36,815 nucleotides of DNA from assembly GCA_903902345.1 (NCBI GenBank), contig CAIUUR010000184.1, positions 1 to 36,815 of the forward strand. The letters run 5' to 3'. Within the stretch, counting starts at the first letter, position 1. The number at the start of each line of letters is the position of its first letter. This DNA comes from an uncultured Geobacteraceae bacterium. GTDB taxonomy: Bacteria; Desulfobacterota; Desulfuromonadia; Geobacterales; CAIOGM01. Below are positions 3,930-33,432 of this stretch, in pieces. The notes beneath the pieces are model-generated. The model searched no databases and was not told the DNA's origin. It worked only from the letters and a program-made list of their open reading frames with translations. The position numbers and the translations under genes were made by a program.

Positions 3930-4670
3930 ATGAAAGAGCGGTCTTTTATCGTCATGGGAGTCACCGTCGCTGCCGCCGCCATAGGTATAATCAGCTTGGC
4001 GCGGCATGAAACTGTAGTCATACGGTTTGTTTTACCGGGTTTGGCGCTGGTTATCGTCTCGGCGGTACTGTCATATGTCATGCGGCATGGCGCGAGTAAC
4101 TCGTGGTACGGAATAAGTAAAAGAGATTATTATAAAAAAAGCGGGAAGCAGAAGTGCGGTGATCTCCCCTCGAGCTCAAATCCGCTGGACATATTGTTGC
4201 AGTTGCCAAAAGAGTACATCGTCATACATCACTATGAGAGAAACGGTTTGGATTTGGAGTACGTCGTTATCGGGCCCACCGGAATTTTTATCCTAGACAG
4301 CAACGGCATCAGAGGGAGCATCGATGTCGCCGGGGATCATCTGATCCTCGACGGCAAGCATGCCGTGGATAAAGCAGTAGAAAAAGTAAAAAGGAGCGCC
4401 CGGCGGATGGGGAATGATTTCAAGACGTTCAATGCGAGAAAGAATTTGCTGAAGGCGGTACTCTGTTTTCCCCACGCCGCCGTAAAAGGCGCGTCCGGAA
4501 AAATCTTCAGTGACGTCCTGGTGGCATCCGGGGATGATTTAATCGAAACGATACAAGGACATCCTCAGCTTCTTGATGCCGCGGACATCGTGGGAATTTG
4601 TTCCTATCTGAAGAAAAATGCGAACTACGCGAGTTGCAGAGAACTAAGGTCAAAAGGGGAAATAGCATGA
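3930..4670 (+). CDS. Membrane-anchored NERD-like protein, catalytic residues altered
   Basis: A 246-residue protein with two N-terminal membrane segments (about 6-23 and 30-49) and a soluble domain from about 90. That domain has the core pattern of NERD (nuclease-related) domains: LPKEYIVIHHYERNG, then LEYVVIGPTGIFILDSNGIRG. In typical NERD proteins this reads roughly DHVVVGPGGVFVIETKNYSG. Here the Asp of the DH pair is Glu, the Glu of the ETK motif is Asp and the Lys is Asn, so nuclease activity is doubtful. The rest (IFSDVLVASGDDLIETI) fits the NERD C-terminal part. The stop overlaps the start of the next gene by four bases (ATGA), so the two are translationally coupled. The NERD assignment is by pattern only. 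Confidence 0.7.
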   Translation: MKERSFIVMGVTVAAAAIGIISLARHETVVIRFVLPGLALVIVSAVLSYVMRHGASNSWYGISKRDYYKKSGKQKCGDLPSSSNPLDILLQLPKEYIVIHHYERNGLDLEYVVIGPTGIFILDSNGIRGSIDVAGDHLILDGKHAVDKAVEKVKRSARRMGNDFKTFNARKNLLKAVLCFPHAAVKGASGKIFSDVLVASGDDLIETIQGHPQLLDAADIVGICSYLKKNANYASCRELRSKGEIA

Positions 4671-6646
4671 AATTCAGGTTCAGCCCGTTTCTCCTGACCC
4701 TATGGCTCTTCGCCCTCTCTGCGAGTGCCACTCCGACCCCGGCGGAGCAGTTCGACTTTCTTCTTTCCCAGGTGCGCAGCTGCAACAGCTCCATGACCGG
4801 AGGGAAGGCATATTTTTACGACGCCGGGAGTACCACGCTGAAGCCTGTCTGCCTTGACCCCCACTGCGCCACACGGGCCGCCAATCCCTACACTCTGGAC
4901 GGCAACGGCATGGCGCCGCTGTACGGACGGGGACTCTATCGAGTGGTTATCAAGGACGCCGGCGGCATTTGTTTCGAACGGGACAACGTCGCCATCGGCG
5001 GCGACGCCTCGTACCTGAACGTAGATGATTACCCCACGGTGACGCAGGCCGATGTCGCGGCCACGACGTCAGGTAAGGAGCTTCGGCTTAACTCCAGCAT
5101 CACGCTATCTGCTTCAACCACGCTCGGCGCAACGGTGAAAATCAGCCCGGGAGTCATCATTACGGTACCCAACGGCATAACGTTGACCATCAACAGCCCG
5201 TTCAACAATGGACTGAATTGGTGCTTCAGGTGTACGGGAACAGGTAAAGTGCTCTTCACTTCCGTCACGGAGGTGTTTCCGGAATGGTGGGGCGCCAAGG
5301 CTGATTGGAATGGTGTTGTTGGGACAAACTCTTCGTCAGCGTTGTCGGCCGCCGCGGCAACTGGGCAACCGGTCAGGTTCGCAAAGGGGGCATACTATTT
5401 CACCTACCCTGTCACCTTTCATTCCTCATCCACCACAAACAGTATGTTTACCGGCGCGGGGATGTCTAATACTCAACTGATCTATCGCGGGCCGGCGGGT
5501 ACTCATGCGTTTGAGGCTGCCATCGATACTGCGACAAATCCTGGAGATGCCAACTGGCCGGGACGGGCAGTGTTCTCCGACTTCTCGATCAACGGTGTCG
5601 GTACCGGAGGTAATCTGGGGCGTGACGCTACTACCGGGGGTATTTACGCCGCTAATACTAACAGCTCCCAGCTGGTGAATATTCCGCATTACTCCTTCAA
5701 TCGTGTGCGTTTATACGGGCTTACTGTCGGGGTACAGGTAGAAGGCTACGGTCATATTTTTACCGACTGTATTGCTGAAGCATGTGGGATTGGTTATGAG
5801 ATAACTCATCCGGAACAGGTGTCGCTGAATGGGTGCTGGGCAAATTATTGCGGAATCGGTTTGCAATCTAATATTAGAAAAGCTCATTTTGGCCATACAT
5901 TTATAATTCAAGGCGGGGCTTATCAACGGTGTAATATCGGAATTCAATTAGGTAATGTGCTCGAGGCAACAATAAACACATACTTTGAGTTAAATAATGT
6001 GTCTGATATTGTTTTGGGTAATCCGTCATCACCACGAGGATATGAATACTCGACTAAAAACGTAACTATCGCAGGCAACTTTAACTCATCATCAGGGATA
6101 GGGCCGAATATCGACTGTTATTCCACTGTTGGCGCAAAGATAGCATTTCACAGTTTCGGGAGCACAAAGAGTAACGCGCCATTAGTCCGTACCAGCGGTT
6201 GGTCGAAATACATAGACGTAGAATATAACCCCGAGGAATTGCCAAAGGGGAATGTCGAACCCTTTGACTTCCGCAATGAAAGTGCGCTTACTTCCATAGC
6301 GAGGCAACAAGGTTCAGGGGAAAAATCCAAAATCCCGACGCTGGCCAGCCCATACAGTGCCAGTGACCCGCTGCTTGTATACTACAAAACGCAACGGGAC
6401 ATGGTGAGGGTTCAGGGTAGCGTTATTTCCGGTGCGGGGGGATCATCTCAAATATTTGTATTGCCTGCGGCGTATAAGCCGGCGTACACACAGACATTTC
6501 CCTGTGTGTACTATAAAGCGGGATGGCATAGCACCTTTGTGCAAATCAAGGCTGATACGTTGGAGGTTTACTGGAATGAGGCAGTGTCTGGCGCAACTCT
6601 GTATATAACCGCTGATTTTAGGACGTATGCCTCAGGTGTAAACTAA
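4667..6646 (+). CDS. Exported tailspike-like right-handed beta-helix protein
   Basis: A 659-residue protein. I chose the ATG at 4667 because AGGGGA lies just upstream and translation then begins with a signal peptide (FLLTLWLFALSASA). After it comes GGKAYFYDAGST...NPYTLDGNGMAPLYGRGLYRVVIKDAGG, the N-terminal pattern of phage tail-fibre and tailspike adaptors. Next is a pectate-lyase-like entry (VFPEWWGAKADWNG, then FAKGAYYFTYPV) and Gly/Asn-rich beta-helix rungs to about residue 520. The C-terminal part (VRVQGSVISGAGG to the end) resembles small beta domains closing tail fibres. Function is unknown; surface polysaccharide binding or cleavage is an inference. The DNA is GC-rich to about 5600 and clearly AT-richer from about 5640 to the end, suggesting a mosaic or transferred origin. 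It is coupled to the NERD-like gene by an ATGA overlap. Confidence 0.8.
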   Translation: MKFRFSPFLLTLWLFALSASATPTPAEQFDFLLSQVRSCNSSMTGGKAYFYDAGSTTLKPVCLDPHCATRAANPYTLDGNGMAPLYGRGLYRVVIKDAGGICFERDNVAIGGDASYLNVDDYPTVTQADVAATTSGKELRLNSSITLSASTTLGATVKISPGVIITVPNGITLTINSPFNNGLNWCFRCTGTGKVLFTSVTEVFPEWWGAKADWNGVVGTNSSSALSAAAATGQPVRFAKGAYYFTYPVTFHSSSTTNSMFTGAGMSNTQLIYRGPAGTHAFEAAIDTATNPGDANWPGRAVFSDFSINGVGTGGNLGRDATTGGIYAANTNSSQLVNIPHYSFNRVRLYGLTVGVQVEGYGHIFTDCIAEACGIGYEITHPEQVSLNGCWANYCGIGLQSNIRKAHFGHTFIIQGGAYQRCNIGIQLGNVLEATINTYFELNNVSDIVLGNPSSPRGYEYSTKNVTIAGNFNSSSGIGPNIDCYSTVGAKIAFHSFGSTKSNAPLVRTSGWSKYIDVEYNPEELPKGNVEPFDFRNESALTSIARQQGSGEKSKIPTLASPYSASDPLLVYYKTQRDMVRVQGSVISGAGGSSQIFVLPAAYKPAYTQTFPCVYYKAGWHSTFVQIKADTLEVYWNEAVSGATLYITADFRTYASGVN

Positions 6647-6937: not shown

Positions 6938-6955
6938 GCTTGCAAACGAATCAAC

Positions 6956-6984
6956 TTTTTAGACTATTTTTCCGTTTTCGTCAA
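6956..6984 (-). promoter_or_regulatory. Probable promoter of the tRNA-Lys pair
   Basis: On the minus strand TTGACG (6979-6984) is followed after 17 bases by TAAAAA (6956-6961), 18 bases before the TTT tRNA. The -35 matches consensus at five of six positions and the -10 at four. Confidence 0.55.
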
Positions 6985-7020
6985 GAACTTTTTACATCGC
7001 AGGCAAATTTTCCGAATTGT

Positions 7021-9087
7021 TTAGAACTTGGCCAACAGCGGCACGATGAGAAGAGAGACGATGTTAATGATCTTGATCATGGGGTTGACGGCCGGGCCGG
7101 CGGTGTCCTTATAGGGGTCTCCCACGGTGTCACCGGTAACAGCGGCCTTGTGGGCGTCACCACCCTTGCCGCCGTGATGACCGTCCTCTATGTATTTCTT
7201 GGCGTTATCCCAGGCGCCCCCCCCCGTGGTCATGGAGATTGCCACGAAGATACCGGTGACGATGGTCCCCACGATGACCCCTCCCAAGGCCTTGGGGCCC
7301 AGGGTGAAGCCGACGATCACCGGCGCCAGGATCGGAATCAGACCGGGAATGACCATCTCTTTCAGGGCGGTCTTGGTGACGATGTCGACGCACGCCGCGT
7401 AGTCAGGTTTACCGGTTCCTTCCATGATTCCCTTGATTTCACGGAACTGGCGACGGACCTCCACGACTACCGCTCCGCCTGCTTTTCCTACCGCTTCCAT
7501 GCATTGTGCGGCGAAGTAGTAGGGGAGCATGCCGCCGATAAAGAGACCGACGATGATGTAGGGATCGGAAAGATCGAATTTGATGATTTCCTTCCCCGCG
7601 AGCTGCAGGGCATGATTCAGTTCGTCCACGTAGGAGGTGAAGAGGATGACGGCGGCCAGACCGGCTGAGCCGATGGCGTATCCCTTGGTGACGGCCTTGG
7701 TGGTGTTCCCCACGGCATCCAGCGGATCGGTGACGGCACGCACGGAGTCGTCCAGTTCGGCCATCTCGGCGATGCCGCCGGCGTTGTCGGTGATAGGGCC
7801 GTAGGCGTCCATGGCGACGACGATGCCGGTGAGGGAGAGCATGGAGACGGCGGCGATGGCGATGCCGTAGACCCCGGCGCACTGGAAGGCTACGATGATG
7901 CCGGCGGCAATGACGATCACCGGGGCGGCGGTGGCCTTCATGGAGACCCCCAGGCCGGCGATGACGTTGGTGCCGTGGCCGGTGGTGGAGGCCTGGGCGA
8001 TATGCTGCACCGGACCGTATTCGGTGGAGGTGTAATATTCGGTGATCCAGAAGATGGCGCCGGTGACGACCAGGCCGACGATGGCGGAGATGAAGATGTT
8101 CATGGTGCTGAAGTTCTGTCCGGCGGCGTTGGTCAGCCCTTCCGGAAACATCCGGACCGTGACGCCGTAGAAGGCGGCGCAGGCGAGGACGCCGGAGACG
8201 ATGAGCCCCTTGTACAGAGCCGTCATGATCTTGCCGCTACTCCCCAGTTTGACGAAGTAGGTGCCGATGATGGAGGCGATGATGGAGATTCCCCCCAGGA
8301 TCAGCGGGTAGCTTACCGTGGCCGAGTTGCTGCTGAAAGTTATGGCGCCCAGGAGCATGGCGGCGATGAGGGTTACGGCGTAGGTCTCGAAGAGGTCGGC
8401 GGCCATGCCGGCACAGTCACCCACGTTGTCACCCACGTTGTCGGCGATGACTGCCGGATTGCGCGGGTCGTCTTCGGGGATGCCTGCTTCCACTTTTCCC
8501 ACCAGGTCGGCCCCTACGTCGGCCCCCTTGGTGAAGATACCACCACCCAGACGGGCGAAGATGGAGATGAGGGAGCCGCCGAAGCCGAGACCCACCAGTT
8601 GGCTGACGACTTCCTTGACGGGCGCGCCAGGCATCAGTTTCAGAAGGATGAGATAGTAGCCGGCCACACCCAGAAGCCCCAGTCCCACGACGAGCATGCC
8701 GGTGATGGCGCCCCCCTTGAAGGCGACATTAAGCGCCTTGTGGATGCCTGACTTGGCAGCCTCGGTGGTTCGTACATTGGCGCGCACCGAGACGAACATG
8801 CCGATGAACCCCGTCAGCCCGGAGAAGAGTGCGCCCACGGCGAAGCCGACAGCGGTCTTGGCGCCCAGGGTCGCGAAGAGCGCCACGAACATGACCACCC
8901 CCACCAAGGCGATGATGGTGTACTGGCGCTTCATGTAGGCGCCGGCCCCTTCCTGAATCGCTGCGGCGATCTGCTTCATCCGCTCGTTTCCCTGGGGGAG
9001 CCCCAGGATCCACTGGGCCGTGATCAGACCGTAGGCCACTGCGGCCGCGGCACAGATCAGGGCAAAATAAATCGCGTACTGTTCCAT
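7021..9087 (-). CDS. hppA: Membrane-bound H+-translocating pyrophosphatase
   Basis: An integral membrane protein of 688 residues (family length 660-770) with about 16 hydrophobic segments. It couples pyrophosphate hydrolysis to ion pumping across the inner membrane. The active-site motif [11 protein letters not shown] is at 190-200, followed by [20 protein letters not shown] (205-224), and the second acidic cluster is in [12 protein letters not shown]. The motif GNTTKA (460-465) has Lys where K+-dependent enzymes have Ala, which in this family marks K+-independent H+ pumps. It is a single-gene unit with a good ribosome site (AGGAGGA). A TTGACA sequence lies upstream on the minus strand at 9196-9201. 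It may recover energy from pyrophosphate made by acyl-CoA ligases such as the one at 21241. Confidence 0.97.
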
Positions 9088-9586: not shown

Positions 9587-10852
9587 ATGCGACTTCGGTA
9601 TGGCGACAGTTCAGTTCCTTGCAGCATTCACTCCGGACGGCTCCTTGCCGTTGTCCGCGCCGACCCGTTACTGCCGGAGGGTTCTCCGGAAGAACTCATC
9701 CTGGCAGCCCTTGCCCGATGCGCCACTATCCTGGCAACGTTCACCCCCGGCCAGCGAGTTGTCATCGTGACTTCGGATATTACCCGTTATACCGGTAGCG
9801 AGCTGTATCTTCCCCTTCTCGTGGATGAACTGAACCGCCGTGGAATTCCCGACCGGGATATTACCATCATAATCGCCCTGGGGATTCACCGGAAACAGTC
9901 CGAACGCGAGCATAAGAAGATCGTCGGCGCCCTCCATGGCCGGATCACCGTCCTGGATCACGATTGCGACGACCCGGGGAAGCTGGTCTCCCTGGGAATG
10001 ACGACCAATGGTATCGACGTGCTGATCAATCGCACCGCGGCGGAGGCCGACAGGCTGATTCTTTCGGGGACCATCGGCTTTCACTACTTTGCCGGCTTCG
10101 GCGGCGGCAGGAAGGCGCTCCTGCCGGGGATCGGGGGACGCGCCTCCTGTCTTGCCAGCCACTTCACCGTACTCCATCCGGATCCGGGAGGGGGACGGCA
10201 CCCCCTGGCTACGGTGGGGGTCCTGGATGGCAACCCGGTGCATCAGGCGCTTTGTGAGGCGTGCGCCCTGGCGGAGCCTGATCTGATCCTCAACACGGTC
10301 CTGGACCCGGATAAAAAGATCATCGCCGTTTTTTCCGGGGAGTGGGACCGTGCCCACCGGGCCGGGTGCCGTTTTTACGGAGAGCAGTTCACCTATCTTC
10401 TGAGTCGGCAGGCCGACCTGGTCGTTGCCTCCTGTGGCGGCTATCCCAAGGATATCAACCTGATTCAGGCCCACAAGGCCATGGAGTACGCCAGTCGGGC
10501 GCTGAAAGAGGGGGGGGTGATGATTCTGCTGGCCGCCTGCGGTGACGGCTACGGAAATCCCACCTTTTTTAACTGGTTCCGGCATCGGGAGCTGGCAGAG
10601 TTCGAGGCGGCGCTTCGAGCCCGCTACGAGATCAACGGCCAGACTGCTTATGCCCTCTTGGACAAAGCCAAGCGGTTTCGGATCATTCTGGTCTCCCACC
10701 TGCCGCCGGAGGAGGTGAGAACTCTCTCCATGATTCCGGCAGGGACTCTGGAGGAGGCGATGACCATCGCGGCGGAGCTGTTGCCGGAAGAGTACACTGC
10801 GTATGTCATCCCCGAAGCGGGAACGGTGTTGCCGGTGTTAAAACCGGGTTAA
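9587..10852 (+). CDS. larA: LarA-type nickel-pincer racemase (lactate racemase family)
   Basis: A 421-residue protein of the DUF2088/LarA family, which interconverts 2-hydroxyacids such as D- and L-lactate using a nickel-pincer nucleotide. The known active-site positions of Lactobacillus LarA are all present at a near-constant offset of 7-8: D64 and R67 (TSDITR), H101 (GIHR), H166 (GFHYFAG), cofactor-linking K176 (FGGGRK) and H192. A later Lys lies in YPKDINLIQAHK. The start MRLRYGD fits the family N-terminus although the ribosome site is weak. The cofactor-making larB/C/E genes are not in the window. The next gene is a GlcD-type FAD oxidase, so racemisation followed by D-lactate oxidation is plausible. 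Another 2-hydroxyacid substrate remains possible. Confidence 0.88.
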   Translation: MRLRYGDSSVPCSIHSGRLLAVVRADPLLPEGSPEELILAALARCATILATFTPGQRVVIVTSDITRYTGSELYLPLLVDELNRRGIPDRDITIIIALGIHRKQSEREHKKIVGALHGRITVLDHDCDDPGKLVSLGMTTNGIDVLINRTAAEADRLILSGTIGFHYFAGFGGGRKALLPGIGGRASCLASHFTVLHPDPGGGRHPLATVGVLDGNPVHQALCEACALAEPDLILNTVLDPDKKIIAVFSGEWDRAHRAGCRFYGEQFTYLLSRQADLVVASCGGYPKDINLIQAHKAMEYASRALKEGGVMILLAACGDGYGNPTFFNWFRHRELAEFEAALRARYEINGQTAYALLDKAKRFRIILVSHLPPEEVRTLSMIPAGTLEEAMTIAAELLPEEYTAYVIPEAGTVLPVLKPG

Positions 10853-10957
10853 AACCGGGTTAAAACCGGTTCAAGGTTCAGGGTTTAAGGTTAAACCTCG
10901 ACCCTCGAACCTCGAACCTTGAACATCGACCCCCGAACCTTGAACCTTGAACGAGGT
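10837..10957. repeat. Short tandem and inverted repeats between larA and glcD
   Basis: Three perfect 11-bp units GTTAAAACCGG (10837-10869) start inside the last codons of larA and include its stop. They are followed by GGTTCAAGGTTC-like sequence and then by many GAACCTTGAAC/GAACCTCG units to about 10957. The two halves are complementary, so the transcript could form a long imperfect hairpin just before the glcD ribosome site. Confidence 0.8.
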
Positions 10958-10961
10958 GAAC

Positions 10962-12338
10962 ATGCTCGCTCCACATATCGTTACAGAACTGAAGAAGCTC
11001 CTGGGCCCGGCAAACGTGGCCACCGACCTCCAGGATCTTATCTGCTACGGCTACGACGCCACCCAGATGGAGTTTCTCCCCGATGCGGTGGTTCATCCGG
11101 CCGGTCCCGAAGAGGTCTCCCTGGTGCTGAAGTTGGCCAACCGGGAACAGATCCCCGTTTTTCCCCGGGGTGCGGGGAGCGGCTTCACCGGCGGCGCACT
11201 TCCCAAGGGTGGGGGGATCGTCCTCGTCACCACCCGGATGAACCGGATCTTGAGGATCGACACCGAGAACCTCATCGCCGAGGTGGAGCCGGGGGTGGTC
11301 ACCGACGATTTCCAGCAGGCAGTGGAAAAGCTCGGCCTCTTCTATCCGCCGGACCCCGCTTCTCTGAAGTTTTCCACCCTGGGGGGAAACGTGGCCGAAA
11401 ACGCCGGCGGTCCCCGCTGCATCAAATACGGCGTCACCCGGGATTTCGTCATGGGACTGGAGGTGGTGCTCCCCACCGGCGAGATCATCCGGACCGGCAC
11501 GGAGACCTACAAGGCGGTGGTGGGGTATGATATGACCCGGCTCCTCTGCGGCTCCGAGGGGACCCTGGGGGTGATCACCAAGATCATCTTCAAGCTCCTC
11601 CCCCTCCCCGAGGCGAAGAAGACCATGCTGACCATCTTTGACTCCATCGACGGCGCCGCCAGGGCGGTCTCCATCATTATCGGCGCCCGGATTATCCCCA
11701 CCACCCTGGAGTTTATGGATTACGCCACCCTTCAGTGCGTGGAAAAACGTTACAATCTGGGGATTCCCCCCCAGGGGCGGGCGGTGCTCATCATCGAGGT
11801 GGACGGCGACCGGGATTTGATAGAGAAACAGGCAACGAGAATTCAGGAACTCATCGCCCCCCTGGGATTGGTTCAGTGCAAGGTGGCCAAGGATGCCGCC
11901 GAGTCCGAGGCGCTCTGGCGGGTGCGGCGCCTGGTCTCCCCCACGTTGCGGGAGATAAACCCGACCAAGTACAATGAGGATATTGTCGTCCCCCGGAGCA
12001 AGGTTCCCGATGTCATCCGGCAGATCGAGCGGATTCAGAGCAAGTACGACATTCCCATCGTGAACTTCGGCCATGCGGGCGACGGCAACATCCACGTTAA
12101 TGTGATGATCGATAAGGATATTCCGGGGATGGAAGAGAAGGCCCACCGTGCGATCCGGGAGGTCTTTCAGGCGGCGCTGGATCTGAACGGCACCATGTCC
12201 GGCGAGCACGGGGTCGGTCTCGCCAAGCAGCCATACATCTCCATGGAGCTGTCGCCGGTGCAGATTGCCACCATGAAGTCCATCAAGCATGCACTGGACC
12301 CCAACAACATTCTCAATCCGGGGAAGATGTTCCCGTAG
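10962..12338 (+). CDS. FAD-linked 2-hydroxyacid oxidase (GlcD / D-lactate dehydrogenase family)
   Basis: A 458-residue flavoprotein of the FAD_binding_4/FAD-oxidase_C type. The FAD-binding loop PRGAGSGFTGGALP (68-81), FSTLGGNVAENAGGPRCIKYG, the C-terminal motif GHAGDGNIH (about 370) and SGEHGVG are all typical. It would oxidise D-lactate or glycolate at the membrane, passing electrons to an Fe-S partner or quinone. No GlcF-type Fe-S subunit is next to it. The ATG at 10962 is preferred because of GAGGTG just upstream; a TTG 15 bases earlier lies inside the repeats. It sits downstream of larA and 33 bases upstream of the kinase gene. Confidence 0.9.
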   Translation: MLAPHIVTELKKLLGPANVATDLQDLICYGYDATQMEFLPDAVVHPAGPEEVSLVLKLANREQIPVFPRGAGSGFTGGALPKGGGIVLVTTRMNRILRIDTENLIAEVEPGVVTDDFQQAVEKLGLFYPPDPASLKFSTLGGNVAENAGGPRCIKYGVTRDFVMGLEVVLPTGEIIRTGTETYKAVVGYDMTRLLCGSEGTLGVITKIIFKLLPLPEAKKTMLTIFDSIDGAARAVSIIIGARIIPTTLEFMDYATLQCVEKRYNLGIPPQGRAVLIIEVDGDRDLIEKQATRIQELIAPLGLVQCKVAKDAAESEALWRVRRLVSPTLREINPTKYNEDIVVPRSKVPDVIRQIERIQSKYDIPIVNFGHAGDGNIHVNVMIDKDIPGMEEKAHRAIREVFQAALDLNGTMSGEHGVGLAKQPYISMELSPVQIATMKSIKHALDPNNILNPGKMFP

Positions 12339-21240: not shown

Positions 21241-22887
21241 CTACCGGTACTTCTCCCGCAACGCTACCTTGTTGATCTTTCCCACGCTGGTCTTGTCGAT
21301 GCTCTCCACGAAGCGGAATTTAAGCAGCACCACCTGTTTGGTGATCATCCCTTTGTCCGCATACTCCCTGACATGGTGCAGGAGCGATTTCTCCGTTACC
21401 TTGTCCCGCTGTTCGGCCTTGAGGATAATGAGAGCCAGGGGGCGTTCCCCCCATTTTTCGTCGGGGAGGCCGATGACCGCCGCCTCGGCGATGGCCGGGT
21501 GATGGACGAGTATATCCTCCAACTCCAGGGAGGAGATCCACTCACCCGCTACCTTGATGACGTCCTTGGTCCGGTCGGTGATCTTCACATATCCCAGGGA
21601 GTCCACCGTGGCTACGTCGTTGGTGTGGAGATACCCTCCTTCCCAGAGCTTTTCCGAGGTCTTGTGGTCCTTCAGATACCCCTGGGTCAGCCAGGGGGCG
21701 CGGACCACAATCTCCCCCGTGCTCCGACCATCCCGCGGCACATCCTGGAATTGGCTGTCCACGATGCGGAGGTTCACCAACGGCAACGGGAGGCCGGTCT
21801 TGCAGCGGATCTCGGCCTGGAGCTCCGGCTCCTGTTGCAGCATCTCCGGCGTCAGGTGGGAGAGAGTAAGAAGCGGGCAGGTCTCGGACATCCCGTAGCC
21901 GGTGAAAAGGTCGATCCCCCGCCCCATGGCCTCTAGGCAGAGCGCCTTGGTCATGACCGCGCCGCCGATGATCACCTTCCAGTGGGACAGATCGATCCGG
22001 TCGATATGCGGCGCCTTGAGGAGCATATGGAGGATGGTGGGGACGCAGTGGGAGAAGGTGACCTTTTCCTGGGCGATGAGATCCAGCAGGTGATCGGGGA
22101 CATACCGGCCGGGGTAGACCTGCTTGACCCCCATGCAGGTGGCCACATAGGGGAGTCCCCAGGCGTGGACATGAAACATGGGGGTGATGGGCATATAGAC
22201 ATCCCCCCGATGGAAGCGGCCGTGCTCCGGCGAACTCCCCAGCCCCGCCATGACCCCCAGGGTGTGGAGGACCAACTGCCGATGGCTGAAGTAGACCCCC
22301 TTGGGGAGGCCGGTGGTGCCGGTGGTGTAGAAGGTCGTGGCGCGGGTGTTCTCGTCGAAGTCGGGAAAGTCGAAATCGGGGGAGGCTGCCGCCAGGAGCG
22401 CCTCGTACTCACCGGCAAAGCTGATGTGGGTGACCGGAGGAGTGGCCTCGTCGGACAGGAGGATATACTGCTTGACCGTGTCGATTCGCCCCTTGATCTG
22501 CTCCATGATGGGGATAAATTCGTTGTTCACCAGCAGCACGTCGTCCTCGGCGTGGTCGATGGTATAGAGGATCTGTTCCGGGGAGAGCCGAATATTGATA
22601 GTGTGCAACACTGCGCCGATCATGGGGACGGCGAAGAAGCACTCCAGGTAGCGGTGGCTGTCCCAGTCCATGACGGCCACGGTGTCCCCCGGCTTCACTC
22701 CCAGCGTGGTGAGGGCATCGGCCAGTCGTCGGATCCGTTCACCCAGGGTTCGGTAGGAGTAGCGGAGTTGACCCCGGTAGACGATCTCCTGAGCAGCGTT
22801 GTTGCCGATGGACGAGAGGAGCAGGTTCTTGATGAGGAGCGGGTAGGAGTAGGCCGATTCGGTGCGAGGAATGAGAGTGTCTGTCAT
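21241..22887 (-). CDS. Fatty-acyl-CoA synthetase (AMP-forming)
   Basis: A 548-residue ANL-superfamily ligase that activates a carboxylic acid to its CoA thioester, releasing AMP and pyrophosphate. Motifs: P-loop YTTGTTGLPKG (187-197), FTGYGMSETCP, the hinge region ITDRTKDVIKVAGEWIS and the catalytic Lys (about K537, SVGKINK). The sequence pattern is of the medium/long-chain FadD type rather than acetyl-CoA synthetase. The ATG at 22887 follows GGAAGGA; upstream in-frame sequence lies in the promoter region. Substrate chain length cannot be told from sequence alone. Confidence 0.92.
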   Translation of the reverse strand: MTDTLIPRTESAYSYPLLIKNLLLSSIGNNAAQEIVYRGQLRYSYRTLGERIRRLADALTTLGVKPGDTVAVMDWDSHRYLECFFAVPMIGAVLHTINIRLSPEQILYTIDHAEDDVLLVNNEFIPIMEQIKGRIDTVKQYILLSDEATPPVTHISFAGEYEALLAAASPDFDFPDFDENTRATTFYTTGTTGLPKGVYFSHRQLVLHTLGVMAGLGSSPEHGRFHRGDVYMPITPMFHVHAWGLPYVATCMGVKQVYPGRYVPDHLLDLIAQEKVTFSHCVPTILHMLLKAPHIDRIDLSHWKVIIGGAVMTKALCLEAMGRGIDLFTGYGMSETCPLLTLSHLTPEMLQQEPELQAEIRCKTGLPLPLVNLRIVDSQFQDVPRDGRSTGEIVVRAPWLTQGYLKDHKTSEKLWEGGYLHTNDVATVDSLGYVKITDRTKDVIKVAGEWISSLELEDILVHHPAIAEAAVIGLPDEKWGERPLALIILKAEQRDKVTEKSLLHHVREYADKGMITKQVVLLKFRFVESIDKTSVGKINKVALREKYR

Positions 22888-23216
22888 GAGTAAGATCCTT
22901 CCGGGAGTGACCTCTGGGGCGCAGCGCCACCATAATTTAATGATAACCTGAAAGCGTTCTTTGAAAAAGAGAAAATGACGGTGACGGGGAAAAAGATCCG
23001 CAGAGTTTTCCTTGCCTATTCTCATTATACTGTAAAGTAATCCGACACATCATGTCGAAAACTCTTACAGTCGGCTCTTTTCCCTTCCGGATCGCCACTA
23101 TCGCTGCTATTTCAACACGCCGATAATAAACGATATATCCCTTTTCTACGCGGATTTGAATCAAGGCACGGTTCGTGCAGCGGGGTGGTTTGTCCGTTAT
23201 GGGGTGGAGGTGGGTC
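22888..23216. other. Divergent intergenic region, 329 bases
   Basis: This lies between the acyl-CoA ligase (minus) and a small membrane protein (plus). It contains a probable minus-strand promoter with a palindrome (see 23024-23057). A minus-strand frame at 22937-23371 has no family resemblance and runs antisense to the small gene; I do not call it. Confidence 0.5.
23024..23057 (-). promoter_or_regulatory. Candidate promoter and operator of the acyl-CoA ligase
   Basis: On the minus strand there is a perfect -10 TATAAT (23024-23029). Over the expected -35 position lies the inverted repeat CGACA-N5-TGTCG (23043-23057). The -35 itself is poor, as in activator- or repressor-controlled promoters. 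Confidence 0.4.
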
Positions 23217-27030: not shown

Positions 27031-27588
27031 TCACCTGCCCAGCGAACCGATTTTATTGCTACTCTGTAATAAAAATTCAAGTGGGAGAGGGGCCTGGCAC
27101 ACCCTGGAAGGCGTCACCCCCCATGCCGCCAACTCACGCAGTACTCCATCCAGAAGTTTCTCCACTTGCGCCGAAACCGTTGGCGTCAACGTTGTCCCCA
27201 TGCTTATCTCCTCCGGTTGAACCCCCAGCAGAATCATTTCATCCGGAGCAAATCCCCGCAATCCCGCCACGAGGAGAAAGTCCTGAAGCCCCGCCTGATG
27301 GGGGGAGAGGATGGTCCGGAAGGTGATGTTGAGCTCCTCTCCCGTCAGGCGGACGAGGGTCCCCGGAGGGCCGCCGGTCTCGACGGCATCCACAATGACC
27401 AGCCGCCGGACCCCCTCAAGGTGGGGGAGGAGATCCAGCCCCAGAGTTCCGCCATCAATGAGTTCTACATTTTCAGGGAAACGATACCGTTCCTGGAGAA
27501 GGTGGATGATCCGGACACCGACCCCATCGTCGGTCATGATGAGATTGCCGATGCCGAGAATCAGGATGTGGGGGGATGCTGGAGCCAT
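27031..27588 (-). CDS. [NiFe] hydrogenase maturation protease (HybD/HyaD family)
   Basis: A 185-residue endopeptidase that removes the C-terminal tail of the large subunit after nickel insertion. It shows GIGNLIMTDDGVGVR, VDAVE and SPHQAG. The nickel-sensing residues of E. coli HybD (E16, D62, H93) map to D21, D67 and H97, the first being a conservative Glu-to-Asp change. The ATG at 27588 follows AGGAG. It is the last gene of the hydrogenase operon, after the cytochrome gene. Its substrate is most likely the 15-residue tail of the large subunit encoded at 29520-31157. Confidence 0.93.
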   Translation of the reverse strand: MAPASPHILILGIGNLIMTDDGVGVRIIHLLQERYRFPENVELIDGGTLGLDLLPHLEGVRRLVIVDAVETGGPPGTLVRLTGEELNITFRTILSPHQAGLQDFLLVAGLRGFAPDEMILLGVQPEEISMGTTLTPTVSAQVEKLLDGVLRELAAWGVTPSRVCQAPLPLEFLLQSSNKIGSLGR

Positions 27589-27691: not shown

Positions 27692-29491
27692 CTACGGCGT
27701 CCACTGTCCCGCAAGAGGTGTGGTATAGGGGGTGGAGGCGTGGCAGTTGGTGCAACTGTCATACTTGGCCGGTTTCAGGGTCGGGAAGGTTACCCCCGTG
27801 GAGGTGATGGCCAATGATATGGGTGCGGTCACGATGGCGGCTTTCCCGTCGGTGACCGTGGCAGTGAAGAGGTACTTCCCGCGGGAGGTGGGCGTCCCGG
27901 AGATTACCCCGGCAGAGGTTACGGTGAGCCCCGGCGGCAGGATGCCGGCGGTCTTCCAGGTATACGGGGACTGACCGCCGTACGCCAGGAGCTTGTTGGT
28001 ATACGGGGTGTCCACCGCTCCTGCGGTGAGGGTGGCGCCGGTTATGGTCAATGGGGCGGTCCTGGCCACGACCACGGTAAGAATACGGGTGGCGCTGGCG
28101 GAAGAAGCGTCCGCCACTCGCACCGTGAAGCTGTAGGTCCCGAGAGCGGTGGGGGTCCCGGAGAGAAGGCCGGTGGTGTAGAGGCCGATTCCCGGGGGGA
28201 GGGCGCCGCTGTAACTCCAGCTGTAGGGAGCAGTCCCCCCGCCGGCGACCAGGGTCTGACCATAGGGACCCTGCATGACAGCCACGGGAAGAGTTGTGGT
28301 GGTGACCGTCAGTGAGGTTACCAATCCACCGAGATAGGTGGCGATGGCCTGCATCTGTGTCGCCACCAGCGAGATGCTGCTGTGAATTGCCAGGCTCAGG
28401 GCCGTCTGGATCTGGGCGAGGGTACGCCCTGAGAGACCTGTTGCCGTATGGCAGGCGACACAATTGCTACTGAAGAGCGTAGCGCCGTCGGTGGAGGAGG
28501 CGGTGGCCGAGATCGTGATCGTGACGGTGGCCGTGGCCGTTGCCTTGGTGGCCGCGGAGTCGGTAACCTGGAGTGTCACCATGGTGGTTGTTGCCGCCGT
28601 GGGGGTACCGCTGATAACCCCGGCGCTGCTGAGAGTCAGCCCTGACGGGAGCGTCCCCGAGGAAAGTGCCCAGGTATAGGGTGCGGTCCCTCCGGTGGCG
28701 GCCAGGGTTTGGCTGTAGGCGGTGCCGACGACTCCGGTTGCCGGGGAAGCCGTGGCGATGGCCAGGGCCGTTGAGGTGGAAGCCAGGTAGGTGGCCAGAG
28801 CCGTGAAGTCGGCGGTCGTCAGTGACGCGGCGAAACTGCTGTGGTTGGAGACCGCCGTCATGGCTGTCTGGATCTGGGCGGCCGTTCTGCCGCTCAGGTT
28901 TGCCTGGGTGTGGCATTTGGCGCAGTAGGTGGTGAAGAGCGTGGCGCCGGTGGTCGTGGAGCCGGCGGCGGAGACCGTGACGGAGAGCGTCGCCGTGGCC
29001 GTCGCCTTAATGGTGGCGGAGTCGGTGGCCTGGAACGTCACGCTGGCGGTGGTGGCGGCGGTGGGGGTCCCGCTGATGACCCCGGCGCTGCTGAGAGCCA
29101 GTCCTGCCGGGAGCGTACCAGCAGAGACGGCCCAGGTGTAAGGTGAGGCGCCGCCGGACGCGGCCAGGGTTTGGCTGTAGGCCGTTCCCACGGTCCCACC
29201 CGTCAGGGAAGCCGTGGAGATGGCCAGGGTGGTAGTGGTTGAAGCCAGGTAGGTGGCAAGGGCCGTGTAGTCGGCAGCCACCAATGACGATGCGAAACTA
29301 CTGTGGTTGGAGACCGCCGTCATGGCTGTCTGGATCTGGGCGGCCGTTCTGCCGCTCAGGTTTGCCTGGGTGTGGCATTTGACGCAGTAGGTGGTGAAGA
29401 GTGTGGCGCCGTCGGCGGCTACGGCCAGGGTCGGTAGCGCCAGCACCATGAGGAACATGGTGCTGCGGATGAGCTGTATCAACGATTTCAT
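27692..29491 (-). CDS. Exported multihaem cytochrome c with Ig-like (He_PIG) repeats
   Basis: A 599-residue protein with a signal peptide ([15 protein letters not shown]) and four haem-binding motifs: CVKCH (36-40), CAKCH (190-194), CVACH (344-348) and CTNCH (580-584). The first three stand at an exact 154-residue period. Between them lie Ig-like putative domains of the He_PIG type ([15 protein letters not shown]...[18 protein letters not shown]), four in all, two of them in tandem after the third haem module. The ATG at 29491 follows AGGAGG; 28 bases separate it from the hydrogenase large-subunit stop. Its place in the operon suggests that it takes electrons from the hydrogenase in the periplasm or at the cell surface, which is an inference. 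Confidence 0.9.
28841..29400. repeat. 462-bp direct repeat within the cytochrome gene
   Basis: A stretch of about 100 bases at 28841 onward recurs almost unchanged at 29303, giving a 462-bp period equal to 154 codons. The high DNA identity around the haem modules points to recent duplication or ongoing gene conversion. Confidence 0.8.
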
Positions 29492-29519: not shown

Positions 29520-31157
29520 TTAACGGATAGTGATGTCGACGGCGTCGCCGCCCGCTGGATCGAAGAGATGGACGGCGCAGGCGAGGCAGGGGTCGAAGGA
29601 GTGGACGACCCGCAGGATCTCCAGCGGTTTGGTCTGATCCGCCACCGGGGTATCCACCAGCGCCTGTTCCACCGGTCCGGCCACGCCGTTGGCGTCACGA
29701 GGACCGAAGTTCCAGGTGGAAGGAACCACCATCTGGTAGTTGGTGATCTTTCCTCCGGAATAGGTCACCCAGTGTCCCAGGGCGCCGCGGGGAGCCTCGG
29801 AGAGAGCCACCCCGCTGCCGCCGGAGGTCATGGTGAAACTCTTTTTGTTGGTGAGATCACCCGAGTTGAGCCGGGCCAGGAGGGAACTGTTCCACCCGGG
29901 AAGGGCGTCGGCAATGACCTTGGTTTCGATTGCCCGCGCGGCGGTGCGACCGATGGTGGAGTACATCTGGGCCAGGGTGAGACCGGTGCTCTTGAGGAAG
30001 GCGTTCACTGCCGACACCATGGTCGGCATATTTTTACCGTAACCGACCATGACCCGGGCCAGAGGGCCGACCTCCATGGGCTGCCCCTGGTACCGGGGAG
30101 CCTTGAGCCAACTGTATTTCGAGGAGAGGTTAATTCCGGAATAGGCGGGAATGGCTTCACCCACGGTTGGGTTGAGTGCATCGCTCCCATCGTACCAGCT
30201 CCGGGCCACATGCTCGGTGATGTTGGCCACGTCCACCGGCTGTACCTGAGTCGTGGCTTGATTGAAGATCGCGCCACGGGGGAAGAAGGGGCTGCCTGTC
30301 CCGCTGCTGGAGAGGGGGAACTCCCCGAAGGAGAGGAGATTGGCGGTATCACCGATCCCGGCGTACCCCTTGTAGACGGTGGCGATGGCGGTGGTATCGG
30401 GGAGATAGTAGGTCGTGACGAAATCCTTGGCGGCGGTGAGGAGCGTGGCCACCTCGTTCAACCGTGCCGCGGTGAAATCAAGCTTGAGGGAAACTCCGCC
30501 GATGAGCATCCCCTGGGGATGGGGGTTCTTCCCTCCCAGGATCGCATGGATTTTGGCCACTTTCCCCTGGAAATTGAGGGCTTCCAGATAATTGGCCATG
30601 AAGACAAGACTCTGTTCCGCGGAGAGGAGGTACCCGGAATGTCCCCAGTAGCCGTTGGCGAAGGGGCCAAGTTGGCCGCTGTTCACGAAGGTGGTGAGTT
30701 TCTGCTTCACCGCGGTAAAGTAGGCGGCGTTCCGGGTGCGGGTTGGCGATATCTGTTTGTCCACCGTCACGGTTTTTGCCGGATCGGCCAGGATGGCCTT
30801 GGTGATGTCCACCCAGTCCAGCAGGTGGAGGGTGTAGAAATGGACGATGTGGTCGTGGATGTACTGGGATCCCATGAGGAGGTTACGGATTATCCGGGCG
30901 TTCTCGGGAACCGTCAGGTTGAGAGAGTTTTCCACACTCTGGATGGAGGCGATCCCCTGGACGTAGGTGCAGATACCACAAACCCGTTGCGTGATCATCC
31001 AGGCGTCCAGCGGGTCACGGTTCTGAAGAATCGCCTCCACACCCCGATACAGGGTGCCGGTGCTCCAGGCGTTGCTCACCTTGCCGCTCGTAACCTCCGT
31101 TTCCAGTCGCATGTGCCCCTCGATGCGGGTTACCGGGTCGAGTACTATGTTTGCCAT
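29520..31157 (-). CDS. [NiFe] hydrogenase large subunit (group 1, periplasmic)
   Basis: A 545-residue catalytic subunit. Nickel ligands are C60 and C63 ([10 protein letters not shown]) and C524 and C527 (DPCLACAVH). The N-terminal signature DPVTRIEGH is intact. The C-terminal His530 is followed by a 15-residue extension ([15 protein letters not shown]), the expected substrate of the maturation protease downstream. In the first motif the usual His (CGxCTxxH) is Gln67, encoded CAG. The subunit has no signal of its own and would be exported with the small subunit. It lies 51 bases after the small-subunit stop. Confidence 0.95.
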
Positions 31158-31208: not shown

Positions 31209-32117
31209 TCAGGAACCGCCGCTGTAATCGTAGAAATTCCCCTTGTCGAAGAAATCCGGCATGCTGCAGCCGTAGCAGGGAGCATCGGCTTGTACCGGCC
31301 AGCTTGCCGCTTCGTTGAATTTCACCGATGGGCAGTTGTTGTAGGTCAGCGTGCCGCGGCAGCCGTATCCCTTCAGGCAGTTTGCGGTCCCCACGCGGGA
31401 ACAGGCGCTGTGGACGGTATTCCCGTAGGCGAAAACCGGGCGCCCCAGGCTGTCCAGTTCCGGGAAGGTCCCGGACAGGAGATAATTGGTGATGGTGGCC
31501 ACCAGGGTCACCGGATTGGGAGGGCAACCGGCAATGTTGATGGTGGGGAATCCCCCCAGGGCGCCGTGGACGCTGGTGGCGCCGGTCTCGTTGCCGGCCG
31601 CTCCCGGCATGCCGCCGAAGGAAGCGCAGGTCCCCAGGGAGATGACCGCCTTGGCTTTGGAGCAGACTTCCTGGGCGATCTGGAGCATGGTCTTGTTGCC
31701 GATCATGCCGTAGACCCCATTCTCCGCAGTGGGGATGGCCCCCTCGCAGATGCAGATAAATTGTCCCGCGTACTGGGTGAGCGCATTCTTCAGGCGGGAG
31801 GTGGCGGCATCCCCCGAGGCGGCCATAAGGCATTCATGGTACTCCACCGAGAGTGTTCCCAGGATGATGTCGGAGACCAGGGGGTTGGACGAACGGAGGA
31901 ACGACTCGGTGCATCCGGTGCATGAGGCGAAATGCAGCCAGACGATGGGGGGGCGGGGCGCGGTGAGGGCGTGGGCCACCTTGGGGATGAATGAGGCGTC
32001 CAATCCCAGGGCTGCGGTCACCACTCCGCAATACTTCAGGAAGTCACGTCGGGAAACCCCTTTTCTCCCTGAAAAATCCAGCTCCAGTGATGATGGTTCT
32101 ACGGTTTCTTCTTCCAT
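31209..32117 (-). CDS. [NiFe] hydrogenase small subunit, Tat-exported
   Basis: A 302-residue Fe-S subunit. The Tat signal SRRDFLK is at 22-28 with a hydrophobic stretch and AHA cleavage site (about 50). Proximal cluster ligands are C66, C69 (CTGC), C164 and C198. The medial cluster uses C262, C281 and C284. The distal cluster uses H236, C239, C247 and C253. CTGC rather than CTCC means the extra Cys of O2-tolerant enzymes is absent. The C239-C247 spacing is 8 residues, while Desulfovibrio-type enzymes have about 25. There is no C-terminal membrane anchor, so the enzyme should be soluble in the periplasm. Additional Cys occur at 96, 122 and 124. The start follows AGGAGG. Confidence 0.94.
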   Translation of the reverse strand: MEEETVEPSSLELDFSGRKGVSRRDFLKYCGVVTAALGLDASFIPKVAHALTAPRPPIVWLHFASCTGCTESFLRSSNPLVSDIILGTLSVEYHECLMAASGDAATSRLKNALTQYAGQFICICEGAIPTAENGVYGMIGNKTMLQIAQEVCSKAKAVISLGTCASFGGMPGAAGNETGATSVHGALGGFPTINIAGCPPNPVTLVATITNYLLSGTFPELDSLGRPVFAYGNTVHSACSRVGTANCLKGYGCRGTLTYNNCPSVKFNEAASWPVQADAPCYGCSMPDFFDKGNFYDYSGGS

Positions 32118-32352: not shown

Positions 32353-33432
32353 ATGCATATGGCGGATGCGCTGCTTTCACCGGCGGTGGGGGGGGTGATG
32401 TGGGCGGTTTCAGCCGGAACCATCGCACACTGCTCGAAAAAAGTGAGCGAAGAGTTGGATGAGCGGAAGATCCCTCTCATGGGGGTTCTGGGCGCTTTTA
32501 TTTTCGCCGCTCAGATGATCAATTTCACGATCCCGGCAACGGGGTCAAGCGGACATCTGGGTGGGGGACTCCTCCTGGCGGTACTGCTCGGCCCCCATGC
32601 CGCCTTCCTGGTCATAGCCTCGGTTCTGATCATTCAGGCGCTCTTTTTCGCCGACGGCGGCCTCTTGGCCCTGGGGTGCAACATCTTTAACCTGGGATTT
32701 TTCCCGGCGTTTATTGCCTATCCCCTCCTCTACCGGAGAATTGCCGGAGATGGGGCGGATCGACGCCGGATGACGGCGGCTGCGCTCTGCGCCGCTGTGG
32801 CGGGATTGCTGCTGGGGGCTTGCGGGGTGCTGCTTGAGACTATCTGTTCCGGAGTTTCCGCACTCCCTTTTGTTCCTTTCATGGCTCTCATGCTGCCGAT
32901 TCACCTGGCCATCGGTCTGGTTGAGGGGATGGTGACGGCGGCGGTTGTCTCACTGGTAGCCACGGCCCGTCCCGAGTTGCTCCGTGCCAATCTCTCCCCT
33001 ACTTCTGATACCAGGCGCTACCTTCGGACGGTAACCTTCACCTTTCTGGCCTTTGCGCTCCTCAGCGGCGGATTTTTTTCTCTTTGGGCATCCGAACGGC
33101 CCGACGGGCTGGAGTGGTCCATTGCCCGGATCACCGGCGGTGAGGGGCTCAAAAAGGGGGGGGAGGGGATACAGGGGGCCGCCGCCGCGTTACAGGAAAA
33201 ACTGGCGTTTCTGCCTGAGTATACCTTTAGGAAACCTGCGGCGTCAGGGGGGAAGAGTTTGCACGTGAGCGGAGCCGGGTGTAACGGAGCGGGTCAGGGG
33301 GAAGGAAAAGGTGGGAGAAATTCCGCCGCCACCGGTGTGGCGGGGATCGTCGGGGGAGCCATCACCATGGCGGTGGTGTTCCTCGCCGGTATTCTGTTGA
33401 AAAAAAGAACATCGGGACAAGGCCCCCTGTAA
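32353..33432 (+). CDS. ECF-type metal transporter component NikM/CbiM with C-terminal PDGLE (NikN/CbiN-like) part
   Basis: A 359-residue membrane protein. The N-terminus MHMADALLSPAVGG carries the second-position His that binds metal in CbiM/NikM. About seven membrane helices cover 1-215. After a linker comes LLSGGFFSLWASERPDGLEWS, the NikN/PDGLE pattern, and a last helix near 335-350. The start at 32353 is fixed by AAGGAG and by the need for His2. Such proteins take up Ni2+ or Co2+ with an ABC ATPase and a Q-type permease, neither of which is in the window. Its position divergent from [NiFe] hydrogenase genes favours nickel. Confidence 0.9.
   Translation: MHMADALLSPAVGGVMWAVSAGTIAHCSKKVSEELDERKIPLMGVLGAFIFAAQMINFTIPATGSSGHLGGGLLLAVLLGPHAAFLVIASVLIIQALFFADGGLLALGCNIFNLGFFPAFIAYPLLYRRIAGDGADRRRMTAAALCAAVAGLLLGACGVLLETICSGVSALPFVPFMALMLPIHLAIGLVEGMVTAAVVSLVATARPELLRANLSPTSDTRRYLRTVTFTFLAFALLSGGFFSLWASERPDGLEWSIARITGGEGLKKGGEGIQGAAAALQEKLAFLPEYTFRKPAASGGKSLHVSGAGCNGAGQGEGKGGRNSAATGVAGIVGGAITMAVVFLAGILLKKRTSGQGPL

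Follow-up and report, generated by a model that had tools for sequence, protein, structure and literature searches.

By what route do electrons from H2 leave a [NiFe] hydrogenase whose operon provides neither a membrane anchor nor a cytochrome b, and is the secreted protein of haem and Ig-like modules encoded beside it the outlet? The question is raised by a stretch of 36,815 nt from an uncultured Geobacteraceae bacterium (contig CAIUUR010000184.1; this whole stretch is called the window), in which the genes for the small subunit, the large subunit, the haem / He_PIG protein and a HyaD/HybD-type protease follow one another on the minus strand. The answer that we favour, and consider rather probable, is that a soluble, Tat-exported group 1 [NiFe] hydrogenase works with a dedicated exported haem / He_PIG partner that replaces the membrane cytochrome b.

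A soluble hydrogenase operon and its third gene

The small subunit (31209..32117, 302 aa) matches Oxidored_q6, NiFe_hyd_SSU_C, TIGR00391 (hydA) and TIGR01409, the last of these reflecting its Tat signal, SRRDFLK. A C-terminal hydrophobic helix is absent, the best 19-residue hydropathy mean being 0.99; the two other group 1 small subunits of the same genome, which are anchored, reach 1.61 and 1.73. The large subunit (29520..31157, 545 aa) is covered by PF00374 (NiFeSe_Hases) over residues 38-530 (E = 2e-194) and terminates in DPCLACAVH followed by a 15-aa extension. With the full-length NiFeSe_Hases domain, the DPCxxC-H motif and the Fe-S cysteines of the small subunit, the predicted enzyme is a group 1 [NiFe] hydrogenase, and the Tat signal together with the missing C-terminal membrane helix assigns it to the soluble periplasmic type. 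Consistent with the extension on the large subunit, the gene behind the haem gene (27031..27588) encodes a hydrogenase maturation protease of the HyaD/HybD family (TIGR00140 hupD over the cut-off, PF01750). No membrane cytochrome b or HybB-type subunit is encoded between 27031 and 32117, and no compact tetrahaem cytochrome c3 at the hydrogenase locus, where the gene next to the large subunit is that of the haem / He_PIG protein; in the paralogous group 1 operon on contig C182 of this genome a gene of cytochrome b type stands directly behind the large subunit. Gene order, hydropathy and gene content thus bear out the preliminary description, which had placed a cytochrome as the third gene of an anchorless hydrogenase operon free of cytochrome b.

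A gene for a CbiM + PDGLE cobalt/nickel uptake protein (32353..33432, plus strand; Pfam) is divergent from the operon, and the sister genome (L054) has a divergent frame of similar length and place. The protein likely supplies nickel and is treated here as context, outside the machine. The gap upstream of the hydrogenase operon gave no match to a sigma-54 promoter, the sigma-70 and terminator scans returned nothing beyond chance, and no Rfam riboswitch was matched upstream of CbiM. Two long frames elsewhere in the window (4598-6646 and 21982-22893) have no Pfam match.

The open frame of the third gene (27692-29491, minus strand) encodes a secreted haem / He_PIG protein of 599 aa (P0001). Its ATG, with AGGAGG just upstream, lies 28 bases past the stop codon of the large subunit, and direct reading of the sequence gives a Sec-type signal peptide at about residues 1-26 (29414..29491). 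This is the one export signal of the protein, in which we found no lipobox, outer-membrane domain or known sorting domain. Pfam assigns three stretches to Cytochrome_CBB3 (PF13442; E = 7e-15) and four to He_PIG (E = 3e-46), both above the curated cut-offs. From the N-terminus, the haem motif CVKCH (29372..29386, residues 36-40) is followed by He_PIG domain 1 (28976..29224), CAKCH (28910..28924, residues 190-194), He_PIG domain 2 (28514..28756), CVACH (28448..28462, residues 344-348), He_PIG domains 3 (28064..28303) and 4 (27806..28042) and a short C-terminal motif, CTNCH (27740..27754, residues 580-584). The last motif lies outside any cytochrome domain and is homologous to the lone haem motif of the partner proteins at three related loci (L055, L063 and L064). 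A strict alternation of haem and Ig modules, as had been described, is therefore true of three of the four haems and fails for the fourth, a CXXCH without cytochrome domain that stands behind two He_PIG domains. With four CXXCH in 599 aa, spaced by 154, 154 and 236 residues, the haems are not closely packed. Comparison with the sister species gives the gene a dN/dS of 0.17 over 445 codons, which indicates purifying selection; the hydrogenase subunits give 0.10 and 0.12 in the same comparison. In a model of the full-length protein (pTM 0.30) the domains fold, the haem modules as helices, and the arrangement of the domains is not fixed; Foldseek matches of the model are generic Ig/cadherin strings.

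At the class I Met-ligand loop (GGM), modules 1-3 of the window partner read NHSS or IHSS and contain no Met, and the N-terminal modules of the partners at five other loci (L056, L057, L058, L059 and L062) read HKG or HKS. GGMG is kept in an unlinked Geobacter relative and in two solved single-haem cytochromes (8qjg, 8qj6). Every partner with several haems thus has HSS or HKG in place of the GGM Met in its N-terminal module. The window haem modules are presumably His/His-ligated and of low potential, the sixth ligand being assigned from sequence only in an alignment that is off by one residue; such a potential would suit H2 as the donor.

Linkage and haem number across the order

Searches of 141 genomes of the order with the small subunit returned 12 loci of one discrete hydrogenase clade, spread over four families (f1-f4), and the search with the large subunit agrees. 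The small subunits of the clade are 57-100% identical and the next best sequence in the order reaches 52%; one member comes from a named strain, Geobacter sp. OR-1. As the contig of L061 stops at the large subunit, 11 loci can be read downstream. Ten of these, from all four families (the window, L054, L055, L056, L057, L058, L059, L062, L063 and L064), have a same-strand gene for a secreted He_PIG protein with CXXCH directly downstream, whose start lies at -64 to +69 bases relative to the stop codon of the large subunit; the exception is L060, with an opposite-strand frame 109 bases behind the large subunit. The remaining flanking genes differ between the linked loci, so the adjacency is not that of a simple large block. 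The linkage that the preliminary description had proposed to look for in other genomes is thus found, and the soluble [NiFe] hydrogenase and its exported haem / He_PIG protein form a real and conserved pair. In a sister genus from the same class (f122, three genomes, large subunits 64-67% identical) no partner gene adjoins the hydrogenase and none was found elsewhere at E 1e-8.

Three other He_PIG proteins are encoded in the window's genome and contain no CXXCH, which leaves the partner as the only one with haem motifs. The sister genome encodes three further He_PIG proteins with haem motifs (L187, L222 and L223), none of them near this hydrogenase clade. Because such fusions also occur away from hydrogenases, the architecture alone is not diagnostic; it is a general habit of these bacteria, and this hydrogenase clade has a dedicated copy of its own.

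Modules 1 and 2 of the window partner share 79% identity in protein and 75% in DNA over 300 nt, and the partner of the sister species (G001, L054) has just two modules, 155 residues apart, together with the same C-terminal haem. On these two observations we read the exact 154-residue period as a recent, lineage-specific duplication and not as a conserved spacing, which rules out a fixed ladder of haems at 154 residues. A chain of single haems had been put forward as the essential design, and this did not hold up: the number of haems at orthologous loci ranges from 1 (L055, L063 and L064) through 4 (L056) and 6 (L057 and L058, and L062 when counted across an assembly gap) to 7 (L059), and several relatives cluster their haems without Ig spacers. 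All linked partners are secreted and contain one or more CXXCH and one or more He_PIG domains.

Relatives of the enzyme in Desulfobacterota

A maximum-likelihood tree built from 90 large subunits places the Geobacter-type loci, f122 and six sequences of other Desulfobacterota (L084, L086, L091, L113, L118 and L122) in one clade of 20 members with SH-aLRT support of 100, and the nearest groups outside it are soluble enzymes of Desulfacinum and Syntrophobacteraceae. The small-subunit tree, like that of the large subunits a quick search without bootstrap, has the same core with f122 (support 96) and a wider group, also at 96, that includes three sequences from contigs without a usable large subunit.

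Several of these six have additions to the subunits or beside them. In L118 (Desulfosarcina alkanivorans; L118:6971-10448) and L122 (Halodesulfovibrio spirochaetisodalis; L122:6992-10403) a C-terminal extension of the small subunit contains two CXXCH, and the large subunit begins with two repeats; structure prediction gives these as beta domains (pLDDT 87), with matches to tandem Ig structures. At L086 (1402-4819) a large subunit with a proline-rich N-terminus is followed by the gene of a 10-haem predicted lipoprotein, and the large subunit of L091 has an N-terminal extension. Within the large-subunit clade it looks as if haem outlets had been added repeatedly, as fusions in L118 and L122 and as the lipoprotein in L086. 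Extended further, this could mean that one [NiFe] lineage of Desulfobacterota became an extracellular or outer-face family, which acquired Ig-like domains and haem outlets again and again (as separate He_PIG haem proteins, as haem tails on the small subunit or as 10-haem lipoproteins) and feeds extracellular acceptors without the quinone pool; we regard this broader proposal as speculative, with the balance against it.

Some individual features of the subunits were also recorded. L113 (Fundidesulfovibrio agrisoli) has two near-identical clade small subunit genes in tandem (6953-7909 and 10410-11078) and a large subunit that begins with a Thr/Ala-rich tail. The large subunits at L063 (7148-8833) and L064 (9888-11573) end exactly at DPCIACAVH with no C-terminal extension and with differing stop codons, and should consequently mature without a protease, an uncommon trait among group 1 [NiFe] hydrogenases. 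Selenocysteine at an in-frame TGA or TAA was considered for these two and rejected, as the frame simply ends at ...CAVH and the stops differ between the species. The small subunits of L057, L058, L059, L060, L061, L062, L118 and L122 have Cys where the WPV motif next to the medial cluster has its Pro, which suggests a medial [4Fe-4S] instead of a [3Fe-4S] cluster; the window small subunit keeps the Pro.

Proposed electron route and comparison with known systems

The best PDB matches for both window subunits are the soluble periplasmic [NiFe] hydrogenases of Desulfovibrio (PDB 1h2a/1h2r, 1frv, 1yqw), which are likewise Tat-exported, anchorless heterodimers with the same cofactor motifs. The Desulfovibrio-type enzymes have the tetrahaem cytochrome c3 as their partner, whereas the tree places the window enzyme in a clade apart from theirs, and its partner is built of He_PIG domains and monohaem modules. 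The window pair most likely functions in the manner of the Desulfovibrio pair of hydrogenase and cytochrome c3, with a partner of another kind. Hya (GSU0120-23) and Hyb (HybSABLP) of Geobacter are membrane-bound hydrogenases (PMC7894505, PMC2825233), group 1 and periplasm-facing like the window enzyme, and related operons lie on contigs C182 and C245 of the window's genome. Their small subunit has a C-terminal anchor and they include a membrane subunit for the quinone pool; the window enzyme, about 50% identical, lacks both. The Desulfacinum and Syntrophobacteraceae hydrogenases (L081, L172-L178), a sister group with large subunits about 53% identical, are anchorless too, but their next gene is usually a protease or unrelated and they have no He_PIG partner. 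L118 and L122 belong to the same 20-member clade as the window enzyme, but their CXXCH and beta-sandwich domains are fused to the subunits whereas those of the window are on a separate protein.

The alternation of haem and He_PIG in the window partner is shared by a Geobacter lipoprotein (L187:7359-8786; DUF5666 - haem - He_PIG - haem), which is 49% identical over 163 aa to the first 178 residues of the partner. Unlike the partner, it is a predicted lipoprotein with a Met-type ligand (GGMGS) and is encoded away from hydrogenases. Different again are the outer-surface multihaem cytochromes of the MtrC/OmcS type, with closely packed haems and many CXXCH per 100 residues. A search of the literature returned no paper that joins a hydrogenase with He_PIG or Calx-beta, and for extracellular or haem-fused hydrogenases, judged mostly by title, no title that describes this system.

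In the route that we propose, H2 would be split at the Ni-Fe site and the electrons would exit via the Fe-S relay of the small subunit. The distal cluster would reduce a low-potential, probably His/His cytochrome module, bypassing the membrane cytochrome b and the quinone pool, and the partner would hand the electrons on to other c-type cytochromes in the periplasm or the outer membrane. The He_PIG domains may serve as spacers or tethers, so that every haem module could dock on its own, giving a flexible arm with several heads and not a wire. An Ig domain measures about 4 nm and a cytochrome about 3 nm, and the limit for fast tunnelling is roughly 1.4 nm. The gap between haems in an extended chain would exceed this limit unless the chain folds back, so an electron wire along the He_PIG-spaced string is unlikely. 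The partner probably carries electrons away from the hydrogenase, and their delivery to the cell surface is possible. In favour of this explanation are the discreteness of the hydrogenase clade and its support in the trees, the partner gene at 10 of 11 readable loci, the missing anchor and cytochrome b, the His in place of Met in the haem modules, the haem outlets added elsewhere in the large-subunit clade and the purifying selection on the partner. Against it weigh the three f122 genomes with no partner gene, the opposite-strand frame of L060, the variable number and order of the haems, the He_PIG proteins with haem motifs that the sister species encodes away from hydrogenases, and a sixth ligand that is read from sequence.

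Enzyme and partner could also both sit at the outer surface, from where electrons of H2 would pass straight to minerals, electrodes or partner cells with no use of the quinone pool. For this tentative alternative speak the partners of L055, L063 and L064, which end in an 81-aa domain that recurs mostly at the ends of large repeat proteins. The domain (L063:10122-10364 in the L063 partner), for which Pfam has no model, has an L(K/R)GGY motif, is present in 3-16 copies per genome, with 16 in the window's genome, and is possibly a sorting domain that directs proteins to the surface. The operon of L063 and L064 is moreover divergent from the gene of a 26-haem cytochrome in both species (L063:936-5588, L064:13143-17807), the two N-terminal domains of the L118 and L122 large subunits are predicted as Ig-like beta sandwiches, and the L086 enzyme adjoins its 10-haem predicted lipoprotein. 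The window partner, however, has neither the 81-aa domain nor a lipobox nor any export signal beyond Sec, and Tat and Sec reach the periplasm only.

The remaining alternatives concern the direction of the reaction and the role of the partner. Soluble periplasmic hydrogenases are generally reversible, and the enzyme might run mainly in reverse as an electron sink, making H2 from electrons that cytochromes deliver. H2 evolution has been proposed for the Hya enzyme of G. sulfurreducens (PMC7894505), but no feature of the window locus favours either direction, and we think reversal unlikely as the main function. It is similarly improbable that the partner is a scaffold, adhesin or redox sensor that holds the hydrogenase near cytochromes, with its haems off the main path and PpcA- or c3-like carriers taking the electrons. 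Such a role would fit a haem count that falls to one while the Ig domains are always there, and the f122 lineage, which manages without a partner gene; yet every linked partner keeps at least one CXXCH, and the same clade adds haems by other means. That a common Geobacter surface cytochrome sits by chance in a cluster inherited as a block seems very improbable: such fusions do occur elsewhere in the sister genome, but the adjacency holds at 10 of 11 loci in four families with differing flanks.

Hyb, the required uptake hydrogenase of G. sulfurreducens, is considered to pass its electrons to the quinone pool (PMC7894505). For Fe(III) reduction the electrons are needed outside the cell, and an exported haem partner, if the favoured reading is true, would connect H2 with the cytochrome network by a route that bypasses the inner membrane. 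Such a route would alter the energy yield, and may bear on H2 cycling in the subsurface, on electron transfer between species and on the corrosion of metals.
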